DNA of 64,000 bases from Methanobrevibacter millerae (GCF_900103415.1 NZ_FMXB01000014.1:1-64000); one strand, 5' to 3'; counted from the stretch's first letter, positions 7,222 to 40,403 are shown. Made by a program: numbers and translations. The notes: a model not told the origin generated them from the sequence alone.

Positions 7222-8034
7222 TTATTTTCTTCCATCTATAATGTTGTATTTGATTTTTTCGGCTTCAAGCTCGCGAACGAATGACTTTGTCATGTCTCCG
7301 ACGCACAATGCAAGGACATTCAATCCTTTTCTTGCGGCATTTGCGGTTGCCTGAGGAGCTGCAAATTCAATGTCAACGGTCAAGCCGAGCTTATCTGCAA
7401 TGACTCTTGAAATTGTACCTGCAACAGCTATCTTGTCGATTTTCGCTCCGCTTTTAGTGCCGTTTTCATAGACGTCCTTAATCAGTGCGAAATCAGCCAC
7501 TTTGGATCCGCCTTCCTTGATGGTCGGCAGGTTAATGACCGTGGCCTCTCCGACAGTCATGTCAATCAGACCGGTGAGATTGGTCAATGCAACGTCATAT
7601 CCGCTTTCGGCATCCTCCAAAACAATGCCTGTTGCGTTTTCTTCTTTTTTGTGTGCGTATAAAATACCGTCTTCCATGTAAAGACCGACATCATCATCCT
7701 TTTTCAAGTCTTCACCAGCTATTGCCGGCCAAATTGTCTTGTAATGATTCATGGTCTCCAGAACGGAATCTGAATATTTTCTTAAGCTTATCGCATCCCT
7801 TTTGACTTTGTCAATACCCGCTTGGGTAATCTTATACGGTGATCTACCGTCTTTTGAAGTGATATAGCCTAACTCGATTAAAGTTTTGATATTTTCTGAA
7901 ACAGCCTGTATTGTGATTCCTAAAGTCTGAGCCAAATCTTTCTGTTTAAGATGAGGGTCATTTTTTGAGATTTCACTGAGAATTTGAAAGTGAGTCAGGG
8001 CACCTCTTTTTTTAAAAGCTTTCATATCATTCAT
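7222..8034 (-). CDS. Archaeal winged-helix transcriptional regulator (COG1497 type)
   Basis: The N-terminal 70 residues form a MarR-like winged helix: LTHFQILSEISKNDPHLKQK, then the recognition helix region LGITIQAVSENIKTLIELGY and wing KDGRSPYKITQAG. The remaining 190 residues are a conserved archaeal domain (VALTNLTGLIDMTVGEATVI, AVAGTISRVIADKLGL, APQATANAARKGLNVLALCV) that looks like a small-molecule binding or regulatory domain. This is the COG1497/DUF7839 architecture found widely in methanogens, with no assigned regulon that I know of. Two possible starts (8034 and 8025) are close; neither has a decisive ribosome binding site. It stands alone between convergent and co-directional genes. 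Confidence 0.8.
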   Translation of the reverse strand: MNDMKAFKKRGALTHFQILSEISKNDPHLKQKDLAQTLGITIQAVSENIKTLIELGYITSKDGRSPYKITQAGIDKVKRDAISLRKYSDSVLETMNHYKTIWPAIAGEDLKKDDDVGLYMEDGILYAHKKEENATGIVLEDAESGYDVALTNLTGLIDMTVGEATVINLPTIKEGGSKVADFALIKDVYENGTKSGAKIDKIAVAGTISRVIADKLGLTVDIEFAAPQATANAARKGLNVLALCVGDMTKSFVRELEAEKIKYNIIDGRK

Positions 8035-8066
8035 CTCTCTAAAATTATTTTGATAAATTTATAAAT

Positions 8067-9677
8067 TTACATTGATATTTTTCCATTTAATGATATATTA
8101 AACTTTTGGATAAACTCATCCTTTTTTGCAAGAGGTATGTATGCGCCGCATGCCATGGCGTGTCCCCCTCCGCTTCCTCCGACTTCACCTGAAACTTCCC
8201 GGATAATCTTTCCGAAGTGAATTCCGTCATAAGAAAGGAAACGTGAACATCTTAAAGACACCTTAAGCCCGTCTGAGTCCTCAATCTGTGTAAATCCGAT
8301 AATCGGCTTTCTCCAGTTGCAGAATCCTAAAATCATTCCGGTAATGGTTCCGACTATTTCAGGTTTTATGCCCGTTCCGTCAAAGTACTGGAGGTTTTCA
8401 AGCTCTATGATGTTGTTTCCGTCTGCAACTTTCTCCATTGAGGTTGCGAGGTTGTAGCGGTGCCTTCTGCTTATTTCCTCAAGCTCAACGAGCGCCCAGT
8501 CACGGTCGCCTTTCAATACTTCCATGGCAATTCTTTCCTCATGGTTTCTTCCGCATGCGTTCATCGCCGTTGAAAACTCGGAACCGTCCCTTAAAAAGCT
8601 CGCAGGATCTTCCATCAGGAACGTATATGAGTCACCGATTAGTATTTTTGGAATGTGCTCGTGATACCTTGGAGGAACCTCGTTTAAAATCATCCTGTTC
8701 AAGGCGTTGTAAAGCTTTCCCTTTTCAGCGTCCGTTAATTCGGATAAGGTTTTTCTTCTGATTCTCTGCTGAATCTGGTATAAAATCATGAATTCGTCCT
8801 TGTCCAGATAGCTCGGCAGTGCCTGAGCCTTTCTGATTGCGTCAATTTCGCCGTTCAATATTGCCCTGTCCTGTCTTGTTAAGGTATAGTTTTTGGATTC
8901 CTCACATAAAATTCCGATTTTTTCCAAAACGTCCTTTTCTTCAGGGCTTACCCTTTCAAGAGTTGAGTCAATGCCCAGTTCATCAAGAAGGGCCTTTGCC
9001 TCATTCTGGTTGTTTGTAATCGGCAGCTTGACGTCGCTGAAGTATGATAACGCGATGAAGAGTTCCCTGGTGTTTCGCCCGTAAATGTTTAAGTCATTTT
9101 CGATTAATTCCAAATAGCCTTCGTTTATTGCGTCATCCTGAATGATTCTGTTCAATCCTTCAAAGTGTCCCGTGCTTGTGTTCTGCATGTCTCCGATTGC
9201 TGATAAAACCCCAATCCAGCTTAAATCACTATATCCAAATTCTTTTGCAAGAAAATAGCACAAACCTCCGCCGCATACGTAATATGACCCGTCGATGCCG
9301 TGATGAATCGGATTGATTTCAAGGTAAGTGTAGTCCTTGTCGTCTTTATAATCTAAGTCTCTTAAGGGAGGATGATGGTCTAAAATCAGAATGCTGTTGT
9401 TTTCAGTGGCTTTGGTATCAATCAACTGGCCTGAACCCAAATCGGAAAAAATCGTCAGTTCATGATTTAATTCAATGTTGTCTAAAACGTCCAAGTTGAC
9501 GAATTCGATTTCATGGGGCTTGCTTAATCGATCAAGAATCGTTGAAAGGATTGCTCCAGAACAGATTCCGTCACAGTCGATGTGTGAATATACTTTAATG
9601 CTTTTAGAATTTTCAATCAGCTCTTTTGCCTGCCTGTACTGCTTTTGCATCAGCTCAGGAATTTCCATTTCAATCAT
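8067..9677 (-). CDS. Archaeal RecJ/GAN-like DHH-family phosphoesterase
   Basis: A 536-residue DHH/DHHA1 protein. The phosphoesterase motifs are HIDCDGICSGAI near residue 33, FSDLGSG, LDHHPP near residue 99, and a later GVLSAIGDM. The C-terminal DHHA1 signature is the GGSGGGHAMACGAYIP near residue 505. This matches archaeal RecJ homologues, which include the GINS-associated nuclease GAN; they are Mg/Mn-dependent exonucleases tied to CMG replication complexes or RNA processing. The ATG at 9677 overlaps the srp19 stop (ATGA). A second ATG at 9668 sits 9 nt from AGGAA and may be the real start. The operon neighbours are SRP19 and Glf, which give no functional clue. Confidence 0.85.
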   Translation of the reverse strand: MIEMEIPELMQKQYRQAKELIENSKSIKVYSHIDCDGICSGAILSTILDRLSKPHEIEFVNLDVLDNIELNHELTIFSDLGSGQLIDTKATENNSILILDHHPPLRDLDYKDDKDYTYLEINPIHHGIDGSYYVCGGGLCYFLAKEFGYSDLSWIGVLSAIGDMQNTSTGHFEGLNRIIQDDAINEGYLELIENDLNIYGRNTRELFIALSYFSDVKLPITNNQNEAKALLDELGIDSTLERVSPEEKDVLEKIGILCEESKNYTLTRQDRAILNGEIDAIRKAQALPSYLDKDEFMILYQIQQRIRRKTLSELTDAEKGKLYNALNRMILNEVPPRYHEHIPKILIGDSYTFLMEDPASFLRDGSEFSTAMNACGRNHEERIAMEVLKGDRDWALVELEEISRRHRYNLATSMEKVADGNNIIELENLQYFDGTGIKPEIVGTITGMILGFCNWRKPIIGFTQIEDSDGLKVSLRCSRFLSYDGIHFGKIIREVSGEVGGSGGGHAMACGAYIPLAKKDEFIQKFNISLNGKISM

Positions 9678-9943
9678 TTCCTGATTTCAGCAATCTTCAA
9701 GCTGACCTCTTTTAGAAGCTCAAGCTTTGTGCCTTCATACTCCACAAGGGCACGGCCTGATTTCTCATACCATTTGCCAGGATACGCTCTTTCCTTATCG
9801 AGAGTGTATGTAAAGCCCAGTCTTTTTAAGGCTCTTTCGATTTCGGATAGCGTAGGGCTTGAAACGGCAATTTCCTTTGATACTTTTCTTCCCTGGGATA
9901 AACTCAGGTCCTTATCTAAATATTGTGGCCATATAGTAATCAT
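9674..9943 (-). CDS. srp19: Signal recognition particle subunit SRP19
   Basis: SRP19 binds the tips of helices 6 and 8 of the 7S RNA and prepares it for SRP54, a step in co-translational membrane targeting found in archaea and eukaryotes. The 89-residue length is typical for archaea. Recognisable blocks are TIWPQYLDKDLSLSQGRKVS at residues 3-22, AVSSPTLSEIERALKRLGF, and AYPGKWYEKSGRALVEYEG. The start codon overlaps the glf stop codon (TAATG) and an AAGGAG lies 8 nt upstream, so translation is coupled to glf. The 3' end overlaps the RecJ-like gene by 4 nt. Confidence 0.92.
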   Translation of the reverse strand: MITIWPQYLDKDLSLSQGRKVSKEIAVSSPTLSEIERALKRLGFTYTLDKERAYPGKWYEKSGRALVEYEGTKLELLKEVSLKIAEIRK

Positions 9944-11037
9944 TATTTAATCTCCTTTTCAAATATTTCCAGTGCGTCCTTTACAACCAAATCCATATTA
10001 TAGTATTTGTATTTGGCCAGACGGCCTGCAAAGATAACGTTTTCCTCTTTTTCCATTTCTGCTTCGTATAATTTAAACTTATCCAGATATTCCTGTGTAG
10101 GATAAGGATAACATTTCTCACCGTTAAAACCGGGATATTCACGCATGATAGCGGTTTTGCCGTCAATCTTTTGTGAGGTGAGCTTTTTAAACTCGGTAAT
10201 GCGCGTAAAGTACGGGTCATTCGGATAGTTGACGACTGCAACTTCCTGATAGGAATCCTCATCAACGATTTCCCAGACAAAGTTCAGGCATCTGTATAAG
10301 AGCTCTCCATACTTGTAATCGTAAAAGTAATCGATAGGACCGGTGTAGATTAATTTCTTATCGTATTTGATTCTATCGATGTAGTCTTTATAGTCTGACT
10401 TGAGCCCGACATGGATATTGTCCGATTCGATCATGCGCTCGCACATTTTTGTAAATCCGTCTTTGGGCATTCCCTGATAGGCGTCTTCAAAATACCTGTC
10501 GTCATGATTGAACCTGAAGGGAATCCTTGATATAACGTCAGAGCTTAGGTTGGCCGCTGATGTTCCCCACTGCTTTTCAGTGTAGTTTTTAAACAATTTA
10601 TTGTAAATGTCCCTTCCGGCATTTGCTAAAACGACGTCTTCAGATGACTTAATCTCTTTAATGTCTTCCTTGTGCTCGTCAATCCATTCCTGCATGGAGT
10701 TTTCATCCAAATCCAAATCATATAATGCATTTAAAGTATCAATACAGATTGGCATAGGGACGAGCTTTCCGTCAACGCAGCTTAAGACCCTGTGCTCATA
10801 GTCGATCCATTCGGTAAACTGTGAGAGGTAATCGTAAACTTTCTTTTCTTTTGTGTGGAAGATGTGCGGTCCGTATTTTTGAATTAGAATATCATTTTGA
10901 TAGTAATCATAAACGTTTCCGCCTATGTGGTCTCTTTTTTCGATTATAAGTACCTTTTCATCCAGTTCATTGGCAATCCTTTCGGCTAAGGTAAGGCCTG
11001 AAAGACCTGCTCCAACTATAACATAATCAAATTCCAT
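9943..11037 (-). CDS. glf: UDP-galactopyranose mutase
   Basis: Glf is an FAD enzyme that interconverts UDP-galactopyranose and UDP-galactofuranose for surface glycans. The N-terminal dinucleotide-binding motif VIVGAGLSG is at residues 6-14, followed by IEKRDHIGGNVYDYY. Further family blocks are YGPHIFHTKEKKVYDYL, NAGRDIYNKLFKNYTEKQW, and GPIDYFYDYKYGELLYR near the active site, and the C-terminal FAGRLAKYKYYNMD. I choose the ATG at 11037, because AGGCGTGAT, close to the 16S anti-SD complement, ends 5 nt upstream; a GTG at 11046 is in frame but has no such site. It follows a GT2 gene by 5 nt, which suggests a galactofuranose-containing glycan. Confidence 0.95.
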   Translation of the reverse strand: MEFDYVIVGAGLSGLTLAERIANELDEKVLIIEKRDHIGGNVYDYYQNDILIQKYGPHIFHTKEKKVYDYLSQFTEWIDYEHRVLSCVDGKLVPMPICIDTLNALYDLDLDENSMQEWIDEHKEDIKEIKSSEDVVLANAGRDIYNKLFKNYTEKQWGTSAANLSSDVISRIPFRFNHDDRYFEDAYQGMPKDGFTKMCERMIESDNIHVGLKSDYKDYIDRIKYDKKLIYTGPIDYFYDYKYGELLYRCLNFVWEIVDEDSYQEVAVVNYPNDPYFTRITEFKKLTSQKIDGKTAIMREYPGFNGEKCYPYPTQEYLDKFKLYEAEMEKEENVIFAGRLAKYKYYNMDLVVKDALEIFEKEIK

Positions 11038-11042
11038 TAGTA

Positions 11043-12146
11043 TCACGCCTTTGAAGTGTAAATTGCAGTTTCCAGTGCAGTTGTCATTGAAGACAAAAGC
11101 ATCTTTGTTTTCATATCGGTCTGGTGAATCTTTTTAAGCTTGTTTACTTTGCTTAAAAGCAGCCTGTTTTCATCCTTGGTAAACGGCGAATGCTTCCATG
11201 TATTCATCCAGTGCAGGAGATGGGGATTGACCGAAACGTTCTTGACATCCTTTGAAAAGCCTTCGGTTTTCTTTCTGCAGTAAATGTAGGATTCCATTAA
11301 TTCATCAAGCAGCCTGACGTTGACGGTATTGGTAATTGACTTGTCGTCAGGCAGATCCCTAATGTAGTAATCGTAGCACATGAAATTGTTTAGATAAACG
11401 ATTCCCTTTGCGTTTAGGAGGGCTTCCAGGGTAAATGCCATGTCGTCACCTGAAATGAAAGGCTGAAAACGGATGTTATTATCCATGATTAATTCTCTTT
11501 TATAGATTTTACTCCATACTGAAGGAGCCATTTTCAATAAATCAGGTTCCTGTTCTATATTGTCGATTATGATTCTGTCAATCGGACCGTCCCTTTTATA
11601 GGTCACTTCCAGGTCTTTACCGTAGAGAATCCTTTCGATGAAGTTGTCCCATACAAAGTCAGATACATTTAAGAAATTCGGGTTTTCAAAGGTCTCATCG
11701 GGATAGGCATGCTCCAAATCGTCCTCATACGGTGAATAGGACTTCTGGACGTATCCTCCGTATTCGAATATTCTTCTGAACCTTGCAAAGGCCATGTCCG
11801 CATCGTTTTCCTTGACCGCATTGTATAAGGTTTCACAGGAATCCGGAGTGTATCTGTCGTCCGGGTCTAAAAACATGATGTAATCGCCGGTGCACGCTTC
11901 AATTCCGGTATTTCTTGGCGTGTATGCCGCTCCAGAGTTTTGTTCATGATGTATTGCAATGCAGCAGTCGTATTTTTCTGCGTATTCGTCAATGATTTTA
12001 TCTGATCCGTCCGTTGAGCAGTCATTGACCATTATTATTTCCAAGTTCTCATTTCCGATTGTCTGATTTATTAAAGAGTCGATTCCTCCTCTAAGGTGGT
12101 CTCCAACATTAAAAATTGGCAGGATTATGCTTATCTTATCCTCCAT
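11043..12146 (-). CDS. Family 2 glycosyltransferase
   Basis: A GT-A fold glycosyltransferase of 367 residues. The N-terminal half contains the usual blocks: ISIILPIFNVGDHLRGGIDS, IIMVNDCSTDGS, NSGAAYTPRNTGIEACTGDY and the metal/sugar-nucleotide binding MFLDPDDRY, with an ISGDDMAFT segment after residue 230. No membrane segment is present. The C-terminal 130 residues are helical and may bind the acceptor. It overlaps the 3' end of hemD by 11 nt and is followed directly by glf, so it may use UDP-galactofuranose or act in the same glycan pathway; the sugar cannot be told from sequence. It is a paralogue of the GT2 genes at 32045 and 33077. Confidence 0.88.
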   Translation of the reverse strand: MEDKISIILPIFNVGDHLRGGIDSLINQTIGNENLEIIMVNDCSTDGSDKIIDEYAEKYDCCIAIHHEQNSGAAYTPRNTGIEACTGDYIMFLDPDDRYTPDSCETLYNAVKENDADMAFARFRRIFEYGGYVQKSYSPYEDDLEHAYPDETFENPNFLNVSDFVWDNFIERILYGKDLEVTYKRDGPIDRIIIDNIEQEPDLLKMAPSVWSKIYKRELIMDNNIRFQPFISGDDMAFTLEALLNAKGIVYLNNFMCYDYYIRDLPDDKSITNTVNVRLLDELMESYIYCRKKTEGFSKDVKNVSVNPHLLHWMNTWKHSPFTKDENRLLLSKVNKLKKIHQTDMKTKMLLSSMTTALETAIYTSKA

Positions 12147-12912
12147 TAGAATCTCTCCAGCTATTGAATAGTAGTTCCATCATATCGGGAACAGTGTAAG
12201 TGTCAGGGTAAATGTGGGTAACGTTGTATTCATCAAGGACATTGGCAGTAATTGGGCCGATTGCAACGGTTAAAAGATTATCTGATAACAATTCAGCTAT
12301 TTTTTCATTGTCGTCGGATATCTTAAAGAAGTTGTGAACCGTCAGAGGGCTTGTAAAAGTAATCGCATCGATTTTTCCGTTTTCGATTTTATTTATTAAA
12401 TCCTTCACGCTTTCATCGTCCATCGGAAAGAGTGACTGATAGGCTTCAGCCAGAATCACTTCGTTTCCAAGTTCCTCTAATCCTTTAGGTAAAGTGTCCC
12501 TTGCAGAGGCAGTCCTTGGAATGCCAATTACTTTTCTTGTAATGTTTCTTTTCTTGAACTCCTCAAGAAGGCCTTCGGCGGTAAAGTCATCAGGCATCAA
12601 ATCAGGTTCGATTCCCTCTTTTTTTAGCAAGGAACCTGTCTTATTTCCGATAACGGCAACTTTACATTCCAGTTCATTAAAGAAATCAGGGTAGAATTTG
12701 TTGAAGGAATCAATGGTTGTTGGAGAGGTGAAGACAATCCAGTCCAGTGAATCCTTGTTTTTAACCAGTTCTTTTAATGAATCGGTATTTACAGGCTTTA
12801 AATCCAATGTCGGTGCAAGCACTGCACTTCCACCTAAGTTTTCTACAATTTCACAAGCTTTTTTAGCTCTGTCAGCAGGTCTTGTAATTGCAACAACAGG
12901 TTTTTTCGTCAT
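12136..12912 (-). CDS. hemD: Uroporphyrinogen-III synthase
   Basis: HemD closes hydroxymethylbilane to uroporphyrinogen III, the precursor of siroheme, cobalamin and F430 in methanogens. The protein has 258 residues and the bilobed HemD layout: VAITRPADRAKKACEIVENL, the interdomain crossing LDWIVFTSPTTIDSFNKF near residue 58, the second-domain start VIGIPRTASARDTLP, and the late ITFTSPLTVHNFFKI and LTVAIGPITANVLDEY motifs. Overall conservation of this family is low, but the paired TSPxTxxxF motifs are convincing. AAGGGTAA is 4 nt before the ATG. The partner SUMT gene lies far away, at 50326. HemD and the glycosyltransferase overlap, an unusual functional pairing. Confidence 0.88.
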   Translation of the reverse strand: MTKKPVVAITRPADRAKKACEIVENLGGSAVLAPTLDLKPVNTDSLKELVKNKDSLDWIVFTSPTTIDSFNKFYPDFFNELECKVAVIGNKTGSLLKKEGIEPDLMPDDFTAEGLLEEFKKRNITRKVIGIPRTASARDTLPKGLEELGNEVILAEAYQSLFPMDDESVKDLINKIENGKIDAITFTSPLTVHNFFKISDDNEKIAELLSDNLLTVAIGPITANVLDEYNVTHIYPDTYTVPDMMELLFNSWRDSNGG

Positions 12913-13048
12913 GATTTACCCTTTTTGATAATTTATTAATGTTATATATTTTAATTTTGTTTGCTTATATTATTTTTGCAATTTTTAATATTGGTTAATG
13001 ATGAACGTTATTTTTATTAGGTGGAATGGTTTTAATTTGATGATATGG

Positions 13049-13255
13049 TTAATCAAGGCCTAAAGCTTCGTTAATTTCTTTTAATTCTTCTTCTGAGTGA
13101 AGCTCTTCTAATTGGTCTCGATCGAAACTATCTTCCATTAATCCTCTGTTAACATATCTCCAAATTAATTCATCAACATCAATTTTGAATTCTTCAGCCT
13201 TTCTTTCTGCCAATTCTTTAAGTTTTTTATTTTTGATTTCATATTTTAAATACAT
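13049..13255 (-). CDS. Small VapB/RHH-like antitoxin, copy 2
   Basis: A 68-residue charged helical protein located directly downstream of the PIN toxin; its start overlaps the end of the toxin frame by 17 nt. Its central segment IDVDELIWRYVNRGLMEDSF matches that of the upstream antitoxin (ISLDELINHYIRRGLYVDYG) and both continue with an acidic QL-EEEL tail. I therefore treat it as a second antitoxin of the same family, probably binding the toxin or operator DNA through the N-terminal helices. Having antitoxins on both sides of one PIN gene is unusual. The function is inferred from context and the paralogy. Confidence 0.65.
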   Translation of the reverse strand: MYLKYEIKNKKLKELAERKAEEFKIDVDELIWRYVNRGLMEDSFDRDQLEELHSEEELKEINEALGLD

Positions 13256-13670
13256 TTAAAGTCTCCTTTAAAGTGTGGATATTATCAATCACTTTAAACC
13301 CTTTAATTTTTTTAAAATCCCCGTCAAATGAAATGATTCTATTAAGATGTTCATTCAACATTGTGTTAATAATTGTACAATCGCTGTAATTAATGTTATT
13401 TCCATACCATCCATTAACTTTTAAAGATTCTAGATAATCCTTTTTTGATAATTCCACGAATTTATTGTCAGTTATAAGATTATTATAAAGTTGTTTTATG
13501 GATATGTCTGTTCCAGCAGTCCAGTTTATTGTTTCAATAAGAATAGTAGTATTAATTAAAGTACGTTCATCATGTTTTCTAAGATATTTTTCAATTTTTA
13601 ATGCTTCTTTATGATGTCTGTCTCTATTATCCATCAAACCTTTGAAAAATCCTGTATCTAGAACTATCAT
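13239..13670 (-). CDS. vapC: PIN-domain toxin RNase (VapC type)
   Basis: A 143-residue PIN domain. Acidic active-site residues are in the expected places: Asp5 in MIVLDTGFF, Glu46 in TTILIETINW, Asp97 in NINYSDCTII and Asp116/Asp118 in ISFDGDF. PIN toxins are Mg-dependent RNases that cleave tRNA or rRNA when the antitoxin is degraded. The gene is flanked on both sides by related small antitoxin-like genes; the 15-nt gap to the upstream one and the 17-nt overlap with the downstream one indicate one operon transcribed on the minus strand. All four acidic positions are intact, so it is probably active. The target RNA is unknown. Confidence 0.88.
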   Translation of the reverse strand: MIVLDTGFFKGLMDNRDRHHKEALKIEKYLRKHDERTLINTTILIETINWTAGTDISIKQLYNNLITDNKFVELSKKDYLESLKVNGWYGNNINYSDCTIINTMLNEHLNRIISFDGDFKKIKGFKVIDNIHTLKETLNVFKI

Positions 13671-25728: not shown

Positions 25729-26592
25729 CTAGTATTCTCCAAAATCAATTATTTTCCAGTTATGATTAAATCTTTCAGAAATAGGTGGGATTTCCATATA
25801 ATTACCATAAAAAACTTTTAAAACTTCATCATATCCAACAGGAATATTTGCACATGTGTCTTCAAATTTAACTTTTAAAGCCTGATTAAAGCAAGATTTA
25901 TGGAAATCTCTTTCTATCCAAACTCCTTCCCCCGGACTACAAAGCATTTCACATTTTCCCTGATATTTTTTTATTAATTTAGTAAATATTTTTAAAGCAA
26001 TGTTTGGAATATTAAAATGTCCAAATAAAAATTTTATTCTGTGTCCTATAAATTCATTGGTTTTGGAAGTGTATACATCACATTCAACAGAATGAGTAAG
26101 GAATATTAAGAATTTTACAAAATAAACTGTTTTTATAAATAAAAATCTTTCAATCTTCTTTTCTGGAATTTCATCTAATACATTAATATCGATATATATT
26201 CCAAAATCATATAGAGTACATTCTTGTTCTTGTTGTTTTAATTTGGTATTTTTTAAACAGAGTAATGTTTTTGGAGTATAATTGTCATCATCAATTTTAA
26301 ATCGTTTTTTCAAGTTTGATATATAATATTTTCCGTTTTCTTTATCTAAAATTTTTAATAATTTCTCATAATCCTCTCTAAGCATAGCTACATCAATTTC
26401 ATCATCCCATGGGATAAATCCTCCATGACGTACTGCACCAATAGTTGTTCCCGCATGGAGAAAATACTGTATATCATTTTCATCACAAATTTCAATAAAA
26501 TCTTTAAATATATCCATTATTACAGTTTGCAAGTGTTTTAATGTATCTGGGTCATAATCTTTATAGTTAGTGTTATTTTCATTCATGGACAT
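25729..26592 (-). CDS. LicD-family phosphotransferase
   Basis: A 287-residue LicD/fukutin-like nucleotidyltransferase-fold protein. The core is GTTIGAVRHGGFIPWDDEID, the diagnostic G-x-R-H-x-G-FIPWDDDID-type motif at residues 49-68, with the metal-binding Asp pair. Bacterial LicD proteins transfer phosphocholine from CDP-choline to teichoic acid or lipopolysaccharide sugars; related eukaryotic enzymes transfer ribitol phosphate. Both types of activated donor could be made in this island (CDP-ribitol from genes 34753-36497, a CDP-aminoalcohol from 38580), so LicD is a natural last step. It is the first gene in the minus-strand side of the island. Substrate is inferred only. Confidence 0.88.
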   Translation of the reverse strand: MSMNENNTNYKDYDPDTLKHLQTVIMDIFKDFIEICDENDIQYFLHAGTTIGAVRHGGFIPWDDEIDVAMLREDYEKLLKILDKENGKYYISNLKKRFKIDDDNYTPKTLLCLKNTKLKQQEQECTLYDFGIYIDINVLDEIPEKKIERFLFIKTVYFVKFLIFLTHSVECDVYTSKTNEFIGHRIKFLFGHFNIPNIALKIFTKLIKKYQGKCEMLCSPGEGVWIERDFHKSCFNQALKVKFEDTCANIPVGYDEVLKVFYGNYMEIPPISERFNHNWKIIDFGEY

Positions 26593-34082: not shown

Positions 34083-34760
34083 TTACTTCCACCCAATAAC
34101 TTTCCGTTTTTCAATAATTATTTCTTTAATTGGTTTTTCTGAATTCATAAATAAACTTGAAGTTCCAGAGACGAAAATTGTTGATCCTTGAGCATACAAT
34201 TTTTCTGCATGTTCTATAGATACGTTACCATCAGATTCAATTTCTAAATCTAGATTAATTTCATTCAAATATTTTCTCAAATCACCCACTTTTTCTATTG
34301 TTTCTGGAATTAATTTTTTTCCAGCGAAACCTGGGGGGGTGTGCATAACTAAAATACCATCTATTTGTGGGAAATATTCATCTAATTCATGAAAATTAGT
34401 TTTAGGATTAATTGCAATAAATTTACGTGCACCAAGTCTTGTTAAATAATCAATGCACTCTTGAATTTTATCATTATTTTCAAAGTGAAATGATACTTGG
34501 TCTCCTTCACGTATGTCGAACCAACTCATTTTTTCTAATGGATTATTTACTAAAAAATGGTAATCAAAAGGGATTTCTGTAATTCTTCTCAAGCTTTTTA
34601 CATAATCTGTTCCTAAAGCAAAGTTTGGAACAAATTGACCATCCATAATATCAATATGTAAATATTCCAAGTTCACTTCTTTAAATTCTGTTAAAAAGTA
34701 AAATAATTTGTCTAATCCAGCACACATCATTGATGCTGAAAGTTTTCCTTTTTTATTCAT
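34083..34760 (-). CDS. Ribulose-phosphate 3-epimerase-like protein in the CDP-ribitol operon
   Basis: A 225-residue TIM-barrel epimerase of the Rpe family. The metal-binding LHIDIMDGQFVPNFALG block is intact; MHTPPGFAGKKLIPET takes the place of the usual VNPGFGGQxF, ESDGNVS that of the DGG(V/I)N strand, and VSGTSSLF of the VAGS site. It therefore keeps the acid/metal residues but has changes in the phosphate loop, so the substrate may be a related pentulose or hexulose phosphate. In the operon, an Rpe supplying ribulose-5-phosphate from xylulose-5-phosphate fits with the next gene, a ribulose-5-phosphate reductase. The 3' end of the upstream gene overlaps its start by 8 nt. Confidence 0.78.
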   Translation of the reverse strand: MNKKGKLSASMMCAGLDKLFYFLTEFKEVNLEYLHIDIMDGQFVPNFALGTDYVKSLRRITEIPFDYHFLVNNPLEKMSWFDIREGDQVSFHFENNDKIQECIDYLTRLGARKFIAINPKTNFHELDEYFPQIDGILVMHTPPGFAGKKLIPETIEKVGDLRKYLNEINLDLEIESDGNVSIEHAEKLYAQGSTIFVSGTSSLFMNSEKPIKEIIIEKRKVIGWK

Positions 34761-35784
34761 TTTTAAACATAACCTTTAATTTTTTTTCATTAGCATCTCT
34801 TAAATAATCAAATGCTTCAGCATATTCATTCATAGAGAACTCTTTACTTATCAAGGATTCAAATGAGATATTTCCTCTAACCATCAAATCTAAAATTTCT
34901 TTCCAATCATTAACACTAGTATTATAACTTGAATTCCAAATTCCTTTTAAAATAATTTGTTTTCTTAAAATTTTCCAATATATTTGTTTGTCTAAATAAA
35001 CATCATCTTTTGGGTTTCCAACTAAAATAACAGTTCCAAAATTGCCTGTTAATCCAATTGATTGATTTATTGATTCATTGTTTCCAACAACTTCAAATAC
35101 TTTATCAAAGTTTTTATCTTCAAGTTCATTTGTTAATAATGTATTTAATCCTAATTCTTTTGAAAATTCTAAACTTTTAGATGATCTTCCAATTACAGTA
35201 ACAGTAGCTCCTTTACCTTGTGCAACTAATGCTATCATCATTCCAATTGTTCCAGTTCCACTGATAGCTATTTTTTCTCCTTTTTTAATGTTCCCTATGT
35301 TTACGGAGTGTATTGCAACTGCTCCAGGTTCGCAAAGTGCAGCAATTTTATAGTCAAGTGAATCATCAAATAAAACCAAGTTCCATTTTGGAACAAGCAA
35401 ATATTCTGAATATCCTCCATCACATCTGGACCCAAAATAATTGTAATCAGAGCATTGTGCATATTGTCCTTCTTTACAAGCATCACATTCAAAACAAGGC
35501 ATTAACGGAAATATTGCAGTCTTTTTACCTAACAAATCTTCATCTTCATCGTTCACTGCTACAATCTGACCAGACATTTCGTGACCAGGAATAGTTGGAA
35601 AATGATAAGTTCCATTTACAAATACCCTTTCAATGTCACTAGAACATATTCCACAATATTTAATTTTAACTAAAACATTATCTTTTTCAAGTTTATATGT
35701 TTCTTTTTTCTCAAACCTCAAATCTCCAATTCCGTATAAATTTAATACATCCATAGTTTTTGGAATCTCTTCAATTGTTTTCAT
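34753..35784 (-). CDS. TarJ-like ribulose-5-phosphate reductase (zinc alcohol dehydrogenase family)
   Basis: A 343-residue medium-chain zinc dehydrogenase. Catalytic Zn ligand Cys47 is in YCGICSSDIE, followed by PGHEMSG; the structural zinc site MPCFECDACKEGQYAQC is complete; the Rossmann motif is SGTGTIGMM. In gram-positive bacteria a close relative, TarJ, reduces ribulose-5-phosphate to ribitol-5-phosphate with NADPH. The call rests mainly on context: its ATG overlaps the next upstream gene, a TarI-like cytidylyltransferase, by 4 nt (ATGA), the same pairing seen in bacterial tarIJ. The substrate is inferred; another sugar phosphate or polyol dehydrogenase is possible. Confidence 0.75.
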   Translation of the reverse strand: MKTIEEIPKTMDVLNLYGIGDLRFEKKETYKLEKDNVLVKIKYCGICSSDIERVFVNGTYHFPTIPGHEMSGQIVAVNDEDEDLLGKKTAIFPLMPCFECDACKEGQYAQCSDYNYFGSRCDGGYSEYLLVPKWNLVLFDDSLDYKIAALCEPGAVAIHSVNIGNIKKGEKIAISGTGTIGMMIALVAQGKGATVTVIGRSSKSLEFSKELGLNTLLTNELEDKNFDKVFEVVGNNESINQSIGLTGNFGTVILVGNPKDDVYLDKQIYWKILRKQIILKGIWNSSYNTSVNDWKEILDLMVRGNISFESLISKEFSMNEYAEAFDYLRDANEKKLKVMFKNE

Positions 35785-36497
35785 AATCCACCTTTCTTTA
35801 GTATTATGTGTTCAGCAAGTTCTAAATCCGCATCAGTTGTTATTTTAAAGTTTATAGTATCTCCTTCAATCATTTTAATTGGATAATTATTTAAAGTACA
35901 AACCTGTGATGTTCCAGTAATAATTTCTTTTTGTTCTTCAGTTAATTTATTCTCAAGTTCAATAAATGTTTTTAGATTAAAGCTATCTGGGGATTGGCCA
36001 TTAAATAACGTTTTTCTAATTGGAATTCTATCAACATAATCTCCATCTGTTGATAATAATATTGTATCATTAACAGGTACTGATGTTACAGTTGCACCAT
36101 ATTCTTTTGCCCCTTCAATATTATCTAAAATAATTTTTTCAGTAACAAATGGTCTTACACTGTCATGAATTACAATAATATCATTATCATAAATTTCATT
36201 TAACTCAATAAGTTTAATAACATTGTGAATTGAATCGATTCTTTCATTTCCTCCTTTTACAAGAGTAATTTTAGATATAACATCTTTATTAAAATATTTT
36301 TCAAGTAATGAATTCACATAATCTTTGTAACAATCATCTATGGCGATATAAATATAATCAAAGCAATTAATTTCCACAAAAGTTTTTAATGTATAGATTA
36401 TTATGGGTGTTCCTTCGATTTCATAATATTGTTTTGGAACTTTGATACTCTTCATTCTGCTCCCAGTACCGCCCGCTAATATTACTGCATAATTCAT
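35781..36497 (-). CDS. TarI-like ribitol-5-phosphate cytidylyltransferase (IspD family)
   Basis: A 238-residue cytidylyltransferase with the IspD/TarI pattern: VILAGGTGSRMK and PKQYYEIEGTPIIIY, VKGGNERIDSIHNVI, IVIHDSVRPFV, and DTILLSTDGDYVDRIPIRKT. These residues bind CTP and the phosphate substrate. Archaea make isoprenoids by the mevalonate route (HMG-CoA synthase and thiolase are in this window), so a true MEP-pathway IspD is not expected. TarI is the better reading: CTP plus ribitol-5-phosphate gives CDP-ribitol. It pairs with the TarJ-like gene by a 4-nt overlap, and the TagF-like polymerase is 80 nt upstream. Confidence 0.82.
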   Translation of the reverse strand: MNYAVILAGGTGSRMKSIKVPKQYYEIEGTPIIIYTLKTFVEINCFDYIYIAIDDCYKDYVNSLLEKYFNKDVISKITLVKGGNERIDSIHNVIKLIELNEIYDNDIIVIHDSVRPFVTEKIILDNIEGAKEYGATVTSVPVNDTILLSTDGDYVDRIPIRKTLFNGQSPDSFNLKTFIELENKLTEEQKEIITGTSQVCTLNNYPIKMIEGDTINFKITTDADLELAEHIILKKGGL

Positions 36498-36577
36498 ATA
36501 AACATCTTCTAATTATATTTTAGTTTTACTAAAATTAGTTATATATTAATATTAATTATATTTACTTAAAAATGTTA

Positions 36578-37669
36578 TTATTCCAAATACCCCATAATTA
36601 AATTTACAACTTTTTCAGTGGAATGACCATCACAAGATTCCATGTATTTATCTTTAAATTCTTTGTAATTCACTTCGTTTTCTAAATTATTCAATGTGTC
36701 TAAAAGTTCATTAAATGTTTTGCAGTAATGTCCTGGAAGGTCTTCTGGAAATTTAAGATATATTCCTGTTTTTGATATGTATTCTTCAGAATCAGTACAA
36801 TAAAATATAATTGGTTTGTCTAAAAGTAAATAATCAAAAAATGCTGAGGAATAATCTGTTATAAATACATCTGCTCCCACCATTAATGAGAGGTAAGAAA
36901 CATCGCCCAGATCTATTATTCGTTCATAATTTTTAGGTACAAATTCAATTTTATCATGTATCTGTAACGGATGTCTTTTAACTAAGAAAACAGAATGGGT
37001 TTCGGTTAAATACTGGTTTAATTGCTCCCAATCGATTCCATAATCAAAGTCTAATAACTCCATATGTTCATATCTTCTATAAGTTGGTAAATACAATATT
37101 ATATTTTTATTTTCTAGTTCTGGAAATTTCTCTAAGAATTCATGTTTTAATTCGGTTTTGTTATTTATAAGTAAATCGGACAATGGATAACCTAATGGTT
37201 TAATACGATTTGGTGAAAGTTTAAAACAATTTTCAAAATGGTCTGAAACGTGAGGAGAACTAATAATAAATGCATCATACTGGGCATGAGTATATTCTTC
37301 AATAATTGGATGATTAGGTAACGCTAATGCAACTTTTTTAAATGCTCCTGGCCCATGCCATAATTGGACTAATTTTTGATTATTTTTTAATGGAATATAT
37401 GCAAAATAACGATAATTATCATCCAGAACAATTACTTTGCTTGTCATTATAAAAAAAGATATATGAAAAATGTCTCTAAGAGTGTGGGGCATAGGTTTTA
37501 TTATAACTTTTTTATCACAAGTTAAAGCATCATATACTAATTGATCGTTTTCCATTAATGTTGCATTTCTAGGACTTCCTAAAAATAAAACTCTTCTCTT
37601 TACAGGTAAAATTGAGCTAATTATTTTAAATATTGAATTAATTATTTTTAGTGAAAAAGGTTTACTCAT
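36578..37669 (-). CDS. TagF/TarL-like glycerol/ribitol phosphate polymerase domain protein
   Basis: A 363-residue member of the CDP-glycerol glycerophosphotransferase family (Glyphos_transf). Diagnostic segments are RVLFLGSPRNATLMENDQ, VQLWHGPGAFKKVAL, ILYLPTYRRYEH and FITDYSSAFFDYLLLDKPI, with IFYCTDSEEY. The family transfers polyol-phosphate units from CDP-glycerol or CDP-ribitol onto a growing teichoic acid. The protein is shorter than TagF of Bacillus, lacking its N-terminal extension, and has no membrane span. First gene of the minus-strand run: TagF/TarL-like, TarI, TarJ, Rpe-like, two GT2, flippase. Start at 37669 is divergent from the methyltransferase gene, 187 nt away. Confidence 0.85.
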   Translation of the reverse strand: MSKPFSLKIINSIFKIISSILPVKRRVLFLGSPRNATLMENDQLVYDALTCDKKVIIKPMPHTLRDIFHISFFIMTSKVIVLDDNYRYFAYIPLKNNQKLVQLWHGPGAFKKVALALPNHPIIEEYTHAQYDAFIISSPHVSDHFENCFKLSPNRIKPLGYPLSDLLINNKTELKHEFLEKFPELENKNIILYLPTYRRYEHMELLDFDYGIDWEQLNQYLTETHSVFLVKRHPLQIHDKIEFVPKNYERIIDLGDVSYLSLMVGADVFITDYSSAFFDYLLLDKPIIFYCTDSEEYISKTGIYLKFPEDLPGHYCKTFNELLDTLNNLENEVNYKEFKDKYMESCDGHSTEKVVNLIMGYLE

Positions 37670-37856: not shown

Positions 37857-38564
37857 ATGGCACGATTATATGGTGACAATGAAGATATTAACTCAGAAAA
37901 AGTAAAAGATTTTTTCAACGAAAGAGCTAATAAAAAAGTGGATAGTGATTTATCTATTGTTTTATTCCAAGATAAAGAAAATTCTGAAAGAAGAAACAGT
38001 GAAGAAAATGCATTGTTTTTAGAAAATATTGATTGTTCTGATAAAAAGGTTCTTGAAATCGGTTGTGGAATTGGCAGATGGGCCGAATTTTTTAAAGATA
38101 AATGCCAATGTTACTTAGGTTTGGATTATTCTGAAAATCTTGTTGGCATTGCTAAAAATTCTCATAATTTTGATAACTGTAATTTTCAGGTAATGTCTGC
38201 TTTTGATATTAAAATTGATGAATTGCTTGTTGAACCACCTTTTGATGTTATTTTAATTAGTCAAGTTTTAATGTATATCAATGATGATAATTTGAAAGTT
38301 TTGATAAATGAGATTAATACTGTAATTTCAGATGATACTCAATTATTTATAACTGAACCAATTTCATGTATGGATTCAAGATTAACCCTTAAAGACTTTT
38401 ATTCTGATGAGTTAGAAGCAGATTATAATGCAATTTATAGGACAGAAAATGAATATCGAGAATTTTTCCAAAAGTTAAATTGCAATGAAATTAACTCTTT
38501 TGATATATTTATGGAATTGAATGAACGATCTGAAACTCAATATATGTCATTTGTCATTAAATAA
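37857..38564 (+). CDS. Class I SAM-dependent methyltransferase
   Basis: A 235-residue methyltransferase. Motif I is VLEIGCGIGRWAEFF (residues about 64-78), then YLGLDYSENLVGIA, and VILISQVLMYINDD as the motif IV region. There is no signal peptide. The gene has AGGAG before its start and is followed after 15 nt by the fused cytidylyltransferase/PLP enzyme, so they form an operon. In that context a methyltransferase acting on an amino group (making N-methylated ethanolamine-like phosphates) or on the sugar is plausible. The substrate is not given by sequence. The ATG at 37857 is divergent from the polymer operon. Confidence 0.82.
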   Translation: MARLYGDNEDINSEKVKDFFNERANKKVDSDLSIVLFQDKENSERRNSEENALFLENIDCSDKKVLEIGCGIGRWAEFFKDKCQCYLGLDYSENLVGIAKNSHNFDNCNFQVMSAFDIKIDELLVEPPFDVILISQVLMYINDDNLKVLINEINTVISDDTQLFITEPISCMDSRLTLKDFYSDELEADYNAIYRTENEYREFFQKLNCNEINSFDIFMELNERSETQYMSFVIK

Positions 38565-38579
38565 ACATGGGATGATTGA

Positions 38580-40403
38580 ATGGACGCTATTATATTGGCT
38601 GCGGGAATGGGTAAACGTTTAAAAGGCCTAACAAAGGATAAAACAAAATGTATGATTACTGTAAATGATGTCACATTAATCGAAAGAATGCTTACTCAGC
38701 TGGATAATTTAAATCTTGAAAAAATTGTTTTAGTTGTAGGATATCATGCTGATAAATTAAAGGAGTTTATTTCTACTTTAGATATCAAAACAAAAATAGA
38801 TTATGTTTCAAATGAAATTTTTGACAAAACGAATAACATCTATTCTCTATTTTTGGCAAAGGATTATTTGGAAAAATCAGACTGTTTGATATTGGAATCC
38901 GATTTGATTTTTGATGATGGAATTCTTGAAGATTTAGTTGGTGATGAAAGGCCTAATTTAGCTGTTGTGGCCAAATTTGAAAGCTGGATGGACGGAACTG
39001 TAGTTACAATTGATGATGAAGATAATATTGTAAATTTCTTGTCAAAAAATCAGTTTTCATTTGAAGAGATTACGGAGTATTATAAAACAGTAAACATTTA
39101 CAAATTCTCAAAAGATTTTTCCAAAAATTTCTATATTCCATTTTTAGAAGCATATACTAAAGCTTTGGGATTAAATGAATACTATGAACAAGTTTTAAAA
39201 GTAATAGCTAATTTTAAAGAGTCTAATATTAAAGTTAAAAAATTGGATGATGAAAAATGGTATGAAATTGATGATATTCAGGATTTAAATATTGCAGAAA
39301 GCATTTTTGCAGATTATGATGAGAAATTAGAAAAATATTCATTAAGATATGGTGGATATTGGAGATATCCACACATGATTGATTATTGTTATCTTGTAAA
39401 CCCTTATTATCCACCAAAATTTTTAATAGAGGAGTTAAAATCCAATTTTGAAGATTTACTTGTAAATTATCCTTCAGGCATGGATATTAATTCATTGCTT
39501 GTAGCCAAGTATTTCGGTTTGGATGTTGAGAATATATGTGTGGGTAATGGTGCATCAGAAATTATCAAATCATTAATTGAACATGTTTTGGGTGAAGATT
39601 CTAAATTAGGTGTTATAATACCTACTTTTGAAGAATATCCCAATAGGATGAATCCAAAAAATATCATAGCCTTTGATTCTTCTGTCAATGATTATAAATA
39701 TGGTTCCGAAGACATTATTGATTTCTTTGATGATAAAGATATTTCCATGTTGGTGTTAATCAATCCAGATAATCCTTCGGGTAATTATATTTTTAAAGAA
39801 GATGTCTTTAAATTAATTGAATGGTCAGATGAAAAAGGTATTTTATTGGTAGTTGATGAATCTTTCATTGACTTTGCTGATGCAGAAGAGGATGCCACAT
39901 TTTTAAATCAAGCAATTTTAGATGAAAACCCTAATTTTATTGTTGTTAAAAGTATATCTAAGTCATTCGGAGTTCCAGGATTAAGATTGGGAATTTTAGC
40001 ATCTTCAAATTTAGAATTAATTGATTATATTAAGAAAGATTTATCTATTTGGAATATTAATTCTTTTGCAGAATATTATCTTCAGATATTTGAAAAATAT
40101 AAATCAGATTATGAAATTGGTTTGGAAAAATTTAAAAATGCTAGAAATAAGTATGTTGATGATTTAAAAGCTATTTCTAATTTAAAAATCTATCCTTCAC
40201 AAGCCAATTATATAATGTGCGAAGTTTTATGTGATATTAGTAGTTATGAACTAACAAATATCTTATTGAACGATTATAATTTATTTATAAAAGATTTATC
40301 AGATAAAAAAGGTTTTAATGGTGAATCATTCATTAGAATAGCTGTTCGTGATGAAGAAGATAATTTATTGTTAGTTAATGCATTAAAAGAGATTTTGAAT
40401 TAA
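38580..40403 (+). CDS. Fused cytidylyltransferase and CobD/HisC-like PLP enzyme
   Basis: A 607-residue two-domain protein. Residues 1-240 are a LicC/PntC-like nucleotidyltransferase, with LAAGMGKRLKGLTKDKTKCM and ESDLIFDDG. From about residue 250 a class I/II PLP enzyme begins: YGGYWRYPHMIDYCYLVNPY, VGNGASEIIKSL, NPDNPSGN, VVDESFIDFAD and SISKSFGVPGLRLG with the PLP Lys461. PGLRLG and DESFIDF are close to CobD (threonine-phosphate decarboxylase). Known relatives include phosphoserine decarboxylase-like CobD proteins and the fused PntC-transaminase of Treponema. It may form a phospho-aminoalcohol and activate it with CTP. The pairing is inferred, not demonstrated. Confidence 0.82.
   Translation: MDAIILAAGMGKRLKGLTKDKTKCMITVNDVTLIERMLTQLDNLNLEKIVLVVGYHADKLKEFISTLDIKTKIDYVSNEIFDKTNNIYSLFLAKDYLEKSDCLILESDLIFDDGILEDLVGDERPNLAVVAKFESWMDGTVVTIDDEDNIVNFLSKNQFSFEEITEYYKTVNIYKFSKDFSKNFYIPFLEAYTKALGLNEYYEQVLKVIANFKESNIKVKKLDDEKWYEIDDIQDLNIAESIFADYDEKLEKYSLRYGGYWRYPHMIDYCYLVNPYYPPKFLIEELKSNFEDLLVNYPSGMDINSLLVAKYFGLDVENICVGNGASEIIKSLIEHVLGEDSKLGVIIPTFEEYPNRMNPKNIIAFDSSVNDYKYGSEDIIDFFDDKDISMLVLINPDNPSGNYIFKEDVFKLIEWSDEKGILLVVDESFIDFADAEEDATFLNQAILDENPNFIVVKSISKSFGVPGLRLGILASSNLELIDYIKKDLSIWNINSFAEYYLQIFEKYKSDYEIGLEKFKNARNKYVDDLKAISNLKIYPSQANYIMCEVLCDISSYELTNILLNDYNLFIKDLSDKKGFNGESFIRIAVRDEEDNLLLVNALKEILN

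Follow-up and report, generated by a model that had tools for sequence, protein, structure and literature searches.

The window (the whole 64,000-nucleotide stretch of Methanobrevibacter millerae DNA that was analysed) contains an operon that encodes a SAM methyltransferase and a fusion of a cytidylyltransferase with a PLP-dependent domain. The best explanation, which we consider probable, is that the fusion leads from phosphoserine through phosphoethanolamine to CDP-ethanolamine in one polypeptide, and that N-methylation and transfer by LicD follow. In the scheme that we infer, with all its reactions, its order of methylation and its acceptor, the PLP domain would decarboxylate O-phospho-L-serine to phosphoethanolamine, which the N-terminal domain would couple with CTP to give CDP-ethanolamine. 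N-methylation of the ethanolamine by the methyltransferase would come next; its most likely substrate is the CDP-linked form, and most likely one or two methyl groups would be added, not three. LicD would finally hand over the resulting zwitterionic group, phospho-(N-methyl)ethanolamine, to a polymer of the cell surface, which may be of the neighbouring ribitol-phosphate type. In bacteria and in sister Methanobrevibacter, a reductase of the octopine dehydrogenase or ornithine cyclodeaminase/mu-crystallin type would modify the same nitrogen to yield N-carboxyalkyl (opine-like) head groups.

Lic-1 (LicA, LicB, LicC, LicD), the known CDP-based bacterial route, depends on imported choline. Like the system proposed for the window, it employs a LicD transferase and a zwitterionic head group activated by CDP, but it uses choline import and a kinase, whereas here the amine is proposed to be made de novo from an amino-acid phosphate. 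The lack of a choline kinase gene, remarked upon in the sequence-only reading, extends to the whole genome, in which LicD is present and the search for the LicA-type Choline_kinase family (PF01633) gave no match. Choline-like and ethanolamine phosphate surface groups are read by host proteins and antibodies. If our proposal is true, a methanogen and gut commensals would be able to make choline-like surface groups with no need for choline import, gene order would reveal the surface chemistry through the exchangeable nitrogen-modifying gene, and swaps of this third gene would change that chemistry between close relatives. Each of the enzyme types is already known; the combination of a phosphoserine-decarboxylase-type and LicC-type fusion with an exchangeable partner is undescribed in the literature searched. 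There we found no description of a LicD-linked phosphoserine-decarboxylase fusion or of an exchangeable nitrogen-modifying partner of such a fusion, and searches on AEP N-methyltransferases and on the occurrence of LicD or phosphocholine in Methanobrevibacter gave nothing on the fusion protein.

The operon and the cytidylyltransferase half of the fusion

The methyltransferase gene (37857..38564, + strand, 235 aa) precedes the fusion gene (38580..40403, + strand, 607 aa) with a gap of 15 bp, in agreement with the operon originally proposed, and AGGAG ahead of the first ORF is a plausible ribosome-binding site. Pfam assigns the first product to the class I methyltransferases (Methyltransf_25/31); we propose it to be the head-group N-methyltransferase. 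The second product has the two-domain architecture that had been claimed for it, with NTP_transferase/NTP_transf_3 at residues 3-133 and Aminotran_1_2 at residues 308-601; we delimit a LicC/PntC-type cytidylyltransferase domain (residues 1-242, 38580 to 39305, + strand) and a PLP domain of the SMUL_1544/CobD type (residues 250-607, 39327..40403, + strand). The dN/dS ratio against the copies in a Methanobrevibacter thaueri MAG is ~0.13 for both genes, indicating purifying selection, and they are therefore real, maintained genes.

The divergent neighbour of the operon encodes a CDP-glycerol/ribitol-phosphate-transferase-like protein (Glyphos_transf, 36578..37669, - strand; PF04464, 9e-65; TarL-like, 142 bits), and a TarI-like D-ribitol-5-phosphate cytidylyltransferase is encoded at 35781..36497 (- strand; NF001183, 245 bits, cut-off 166). 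Both products are possible polymer backbone enzymes, judging from their families. The whole set at 34083-37669 (- strand) consists of Rpe-like, TarJ-like dehydrogenase, TarI-like (above cut-off) and TarL-like genes and is by sequence of the ribitol-phosphate teichoic-acid type, in an archaeon. As these genes adjoin the operon, a ribitol-phosphate polymer is a plausible acceptor of the head group. The LicD-family phosphotransferase gene previously noted at 25729 is indeed present (25729..26592, - strand; PF04991, 132 bits), and we propose that its product transfers the head group to the surface polymer. No more than two LicD genes exist in the genome, and the second belongs to a phosphonate locus; the one in the window lies in the same polysaccharide locus as the fusion but ~11 kb away and outside the operon, which counts against our explanation.

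The proposed activation by CTP is supported by the best PDB matches of the N-terminal domain, PntC Tde1415 (6pd1, 62 bits) and LicC (1jyk, 54 bits). Its N terminus, AAGMGKRLKGLTKDKTK, exhibits the G-x-G-x-R...K signature of the NTP-transferase fold, with G9, G11, R13 and K23 invariant in the fusion relatives. The substrate amine is contacted by Glu104/Glu196 in PntC, whose preferred substrate is the small primary amine AEP, and by Asp105/Asp192 in the phosphocholine-accepting LicC (PMC6697681). By sequence alignment, the pocket of the fusion combines Glu106/Glu203 with LicC-like aromatic residues; the phosphocholine-specific mark of LicC (D105/D192, with room for a trimethylamine) is absent. 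E106, W136, Y201, Y202 and E203 are the same in all 55 relatives compared, irrespective of which enzyme is encoded alongside. Since the Glu pair and W136/Y201/Y202 are retained regardless of the tailoring gene, the cytidylyltransferase half would always meet the same small primary-amine substrate, phosphoethanolamine, and the nitrogen would be modified later. The same architecture, a LicC-like N-terminal cytidylyltransferase followed by a C-terminal PLP enzyme, and Glu at the amine-binding positions are found in PntC-AEPT of Treponema denticola (Tde1415; PDB 6PD1/6PD2; PMC6697681); however, the PLP half of the latter is a class V AEP transaminase, whereas that of the fusion is CobD-like, of the decarboxylase type (Aminotran_1_2), and PntC-AEPT is tied to PEP mutase, whereas the fusion mostly occurs in genomes without it.

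The methyltransferase and its acceptor

A profile of 14 members of the methyltransferase family identified phosphoethanolamine N-methyltransferases as the four best matches in the PDB (among them Arabidopsis PMT1, 5wp4, 67 bits), while two control methyltransferases gave no such match. With the AF2 model (pLDDT 81, with low confidence at the N terminus) as query, the first eight PDB matches were Plasmodium phosphoethanolamine methyltransferases and the ninth was the phosphonate methyltransferase DhpI, the fold matches being moderate (TM ~0.6, identity ~15-17%). Thus, the plant, nematode and Plasmodium enzymes are the nearest solved relatives in both sequence and fold, and the (L)LMY-x-(S/N)D motif of the PMT1 MT1 domain is common to both, but the protein in the window is a single, short, archaeal domain with only ~15-17% identity in the fold alignment, and a putative member of this group.

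PMT1-type domains carry out the first methylation only. The motif VLMYIND of the window protein resembles those of first-step PMT1 domains, which favours one methyl group over three, so that the product is probably mono- or dimethylethanolamine rather than choline. The PntC-type Glu pair of the cytidylyltransferase half points in the same direction: ethanolamine, mono- or dimethyl-ethanolamine phosphate appears more likely as the product than choline, and we abandon the phosphocholine endpoint of the sequence-only reading, which fits neither Glu106/Glu203 (in place of the LicC Asp pair) nor a single-domain, PMT1-like methyltransferase.

Head-group genes of four kinds accompany the methyltransferase gene in 12 of the 14 loci analysed: the fusion (the window and L002), a class V aminotransferase with a TagD-like/dehydrogenase fusion and LicD (7 loci), a small LicC-like protein (2 loci) and a complete AEP operon (L097). 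The last, from a sister species (7509-13612, - strand), encodes PEP mutase, PntC::AEP transaminase (TIGR03301, 368 bits, above cut-off), the methyltransferase, Ppd and LicD; here the methyltransferase lies between PntC::AEP transaminase and Ppd, and by analogy its obvious acceptor would be the amine of AEP, making the operon a candidate N-methyl-AEP route. The cassettes of the second kind (L087, 5819-9784; also L088 and L091-L095), in which the dehydrogenase is of the GFO type, are a third head-group cassette in Methanobrevibacter and possibly a CDP-amino-glycerol route; the TagD-like::GFO dehydrogenase fusion also occurs near the decarboxylase fusion in Akkermansia.

Could the methyltransferase be an unrelated sugar or other methyltransferase, adjacent by chance to a fusion that makes CDP-ethanolamine? 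Of 56 fusion loci, only 3 have a member of its family next to the fusion (4 have one of another methyltransferase family), the family is present in many genomes without the fusion, and in G123 and G110 it lies away from any head-group cassette. The rarity of the pairing and these two isolated copies count against our explanation, but a chance neighbour is hard to reconcile with the association with CDP/CMP head-group genes of four kinds, the AEP operon included, or with phosphoethanolamine methyltransferases as the nearest solved relatives, and we consider it unlikely, though the strongest of the alternatives. The window genome was also searched for the TagD-like::GFO cassette, which is absent, and hydroxyethylphosphonate (the probable product of another cassette of this genome, see below) has no amine; the fusion product is therefore the best candidate for the methyl acceptor here. 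N-methylation of the head group, as suggested initially, thus appears well supported by the nearest solved relatives and by the copy inside the AEP operon.

The PLP-dependent half of the fusion

The best PDB match of the PLP domain is 6oux (~174-175.6 bits; CobD: 69-71 bits; HisC: 46 bits), which precedes 3ftb, CobD and HisC in the sequence search. The family profile confirmed this order with a higher score (6oux: 222.6 bits; CobD: 130 bits). The predicted structure of the fusion (mean pLDDT 90) matches 6oux at TM 0.78-0.84 with 33% identity, as the first single-domain structural match. This entry is SMUL_1544, listed as a decarboxylase of Sulfurospirillum multivorans; the enzyme acts on phosphoserine. 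A 34% identical Sulfurospirillum homologue in the plasmid collection bears the name "norcobamide biosynthesis serine-O-phosphate decarboxylase". SMUL_1544 and the PLP half of the fusion (33-34% identity) have the motifs YPS, DESF, KS-SK, WNIN and RIA-R in common, but the former is a stand-alone protein of norcobamide synthesis, whereas the latter is joined to a cytidylyltransferase. Among 85 PLP-domain columns invariant in the fusion family, 52 are common to SMUL_1544 and 37 to plant HisC; K461, the proposed PLP lysine, is invariant as well. Taken together, sequence and predicted fold make a phosphoserine decarboxylase type, closest to SMUL_1544, the best reading of this domain. The NCBIfam cut-offs failed to separate decarboxylase from transaminase, as the CobD model (TIGR01140, 158 bits, curated cut-off 290.55) and the HisC model (154 bits) score nearly equally and below their cut-offs, and this counts against our reading. 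A cobamide role was considered and rejected: a separate CobD candidate elsewhere in the genome scores better (209 vs 160 bits), so the fusion is not simply a cobamide enzyme.

The step proposed for the fusion has a precedent in a surface polymer: Cj1436 of Campylobacter jejuni is a PLP-dependent enzyme that converts phosphoserine to ethanolamine-phosphate for surface polysaccharide (PMC12409886), which supports our reading, although in that system the ethanolamine is attached through an amide bond, and neither CTP activation nor LicD is involved.

The decarboxylating CobD relative foreseen in the sequence-only reading could have acted on either phosphoserine or phosphothreonine. The former holds up, SMUL_1544 being nearest by sequence and fold, while the latter fares less well, CobD being further off. 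A route from O-phospho-threonine to CDP-(R)-1-amino-2-propanol, otherwise identical to our scheme, is quite improbable: the threonine-phosphate decarboxylase CobD is the next characterised decarboxylase relative, but at 130 bits in the family-profile search it is clearly more distant than the phosphoserine-type SMUL_1544, and phosphoserine is a general intermediate of the serine pathway, whereas threonine kinase is specialised. We give slightly less credence still to a transaminase that makes an amino-alcohol phosphate, for instance serinol phosphate from dihydroxyacetone phosphate, giving CDP-serinol. Cj1437, from the same capsule cluster as Cj1436, makes serinol phosphate from a dihydroxyacetone precursor (PMC12409886), and the CobD and HisC models do not distinguish the two activities; however, the nearest solved relative is a decarboxylase, and the invariant columns agree better with it than with HisC (52 vs 37 of 85).

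A dependence on phosphonates was assessed by searching for PEP mutase, with the curated family cut-off, in the whole M. millerae genome and in 50 + 13 other genomes. PEP mutase above cut-off is present in 7 of the 50 other fusion genomes and missing from 43 (42 if a truncated match is counted as present), some of these being MAGs in which single absences may be assembly gaps. It is absent from the complete Oceanirhabdus chromosome, from the M. thaueri MAG and from 5 of the 6 other Methanobrevibacter fusion genomes (one of the five a single contig) and present in the sixth. The fusion thus shows no dependence on phosphonate genes. M. millerae itself also encodes a phosphonate pathway, which counts against our explanation; its PEP mutase lies on another contig, in a separate cassette with a stand-alone cytidylyltransferase, Ppd, an Fe-alcohol dehydrogenase and LicD. 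This cassette (L060, 4271-11572 on contig C13) comprises LicD, an unidentified gene, a stand-alone PntC-like gene, PEP mutase with a cytidylyltransferase domain, Ppd and the Fe-alcohol dehydrogenase and is, from its gene content, a probable CMP-hydroxyethylphosphonate surface route. PEP mutase/Ppd genes near the fusions of relatives, named beforehand as a sign in favour of phosphonates, do occur in two Lachnospiraceae loci (L042 and L050, adjoining the fusion; L050 carries a complete hydroxyethylphosphonate set of its own) and in L029 (Ppd only), but the genome-wide absences speak against this as a rule. That the PLP domain is a transaminase converting phosphonoacetaldehyde to 2-aminoethylphosphonate, from which the first domain would make CMP-AEP as in Treponema PntC-AEPT, is very improbable: the two-domain plan of Tde1415, the three loci just named and the PEP mutase and Ppd of the genome itself favour it, but the PLP fold class differs (Aminotran_1_2 here, Aminotran_5 in Tde1415-type proteins), PEP mutase is missing from most fusion genomes, and the PEP-mutase cassette of M. 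millerae, like that of L050, is of the hydroxyethylphosphonate type, with its own PntC and Fe-alcohol dehydrogenase and no need for a transaminase.

The exchangeable third gene and the spread of the fusion

Clustering of the genes that surround the fusion at 56 loci showed that 29 loci have LicD no more than 6 kb away, 8 have a TagF-like/YidC fusion and 36 have either of them. LicD and TagF-like enzymes both use CDP-activated alcohols. This comparison supports the proposed transfer by LicD, as does the LicD-family enzyme Mf1, which transfers phosphoethanolamine from CDP-ethanolamine in vitro (PMC11982090).

An enzyme of an amine-acting type is encoded directly beside the fusion in 31 of the 56 loci, often followed by LicD: 14 loci have a member of the ornithine cyclodeaminase/µ-crystallin family, 11 have one of the octopine dehydrogenase family, with both present at one locus, and 7 have a methyltransferase. 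In 30 of the 31 the slot gene is within -37 to +90 bp of the fusion, and in all but one it is on the same strand. Octopine dehydrogenase proper (3c7a, 107 bits) is the closest match of the octopine dehydrogenase-type protein. When the three slot types are mapped onto a tree of 32 fusions, no fewer than 11 changes are required, and the distribution of the two reductase types is about as random as that of shuffled labels. Near-identical loci differ only in the slot gene (L004 vs L007; in Akkermansia, L024 vs L021 and L049), and Methanobrevibacter has all three types: methyltransferase in the window and L002, ornithine cyclodeaminase type in L003 and L072, octopine dehydrogenase in L073. The simplest reading is that one common amine is dressed in different ways across loci; from the enzyme families, the reductase types would carry out N-carboxyalkylation.

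The sequence-only reading had missed this wider arrangement, in which the slot of the methyltransferase is usually held by an ornithine cyclodeaminase- or octopine dehydrogenase-family enzyme. We tentatively propose, with some doubt, a widespread module that combines a phosphoserine-to-CDP-ethanolamine fusion, an exchangeable nitrogen-modifying enzyme and LicD, and that would provide gut microbes with variable zwitterionic head groups, N-methylated in some archaea and clostridia and N-carboxyalkylated (opine-like) where the slot enzyme is of the octopine dehydrogenase or ornithine cyclodeaminase type.

Several loci show further variation around the fusion. In the complete genome of a sister (G091:C1:1533932-1534639), a copy of the methyltransferase gene with an in-frame stop lies ~5 kb from the fusion, whose slot now holds an ornithine cyclodeaminase-type gene, perhaps a recent switch. 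In Bacillus, Faecalimonas and Fusobacterium (L009 9860-10957, L039, L061 9820-10869), a gene adjoining the fusion encodes a DUF1015 protein, perhaps a further tailoring enzyme, and an Asp/Glu-type racemase gene (cysteate-racemase-like, below cut-off) is directly upstream of one Methanobrevibacter fusion (L074 8261-9001).

The fusion is not peculiar to the window, since 58 related fusion loci were found; its nearest relatives are from M. thaueri (80%) and another Methanobrevibacter MAG (77%). It is common among gut bacteria, and carriers include Bacteroidales, Akkermansia, Clostridia, Fusobacterium, Spirochaetes and Methanobrevibacter. Among 139 genomes of the archaeal family it is found in 7, all of one genus, and the archaeal copies group with full support in a single clade surrounded by bacterial sequences, which suggests that they were gained from gut bacteria. 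The annotated plasmid records of fusion relatives label them only as PLP-dependent aminotransferase-like enzymes. Distant fusions on plasmids of Priestia, Rahnella and Bradyrhizobium (32-35% identity), set among a DXR-like gene, a CDP-alcohol phosphatidyltransferase and PEP mutase, were left out of the functional inference. The copy on Priestia megaterium plasmid pBM700 (L062 8992-12638, 35% identity) is accompanied by a DXP-reductoisomerase-like gene and two ATP-grasp genes, and this region resembles a gene cluster for a small molecule that may include a resistance copy.
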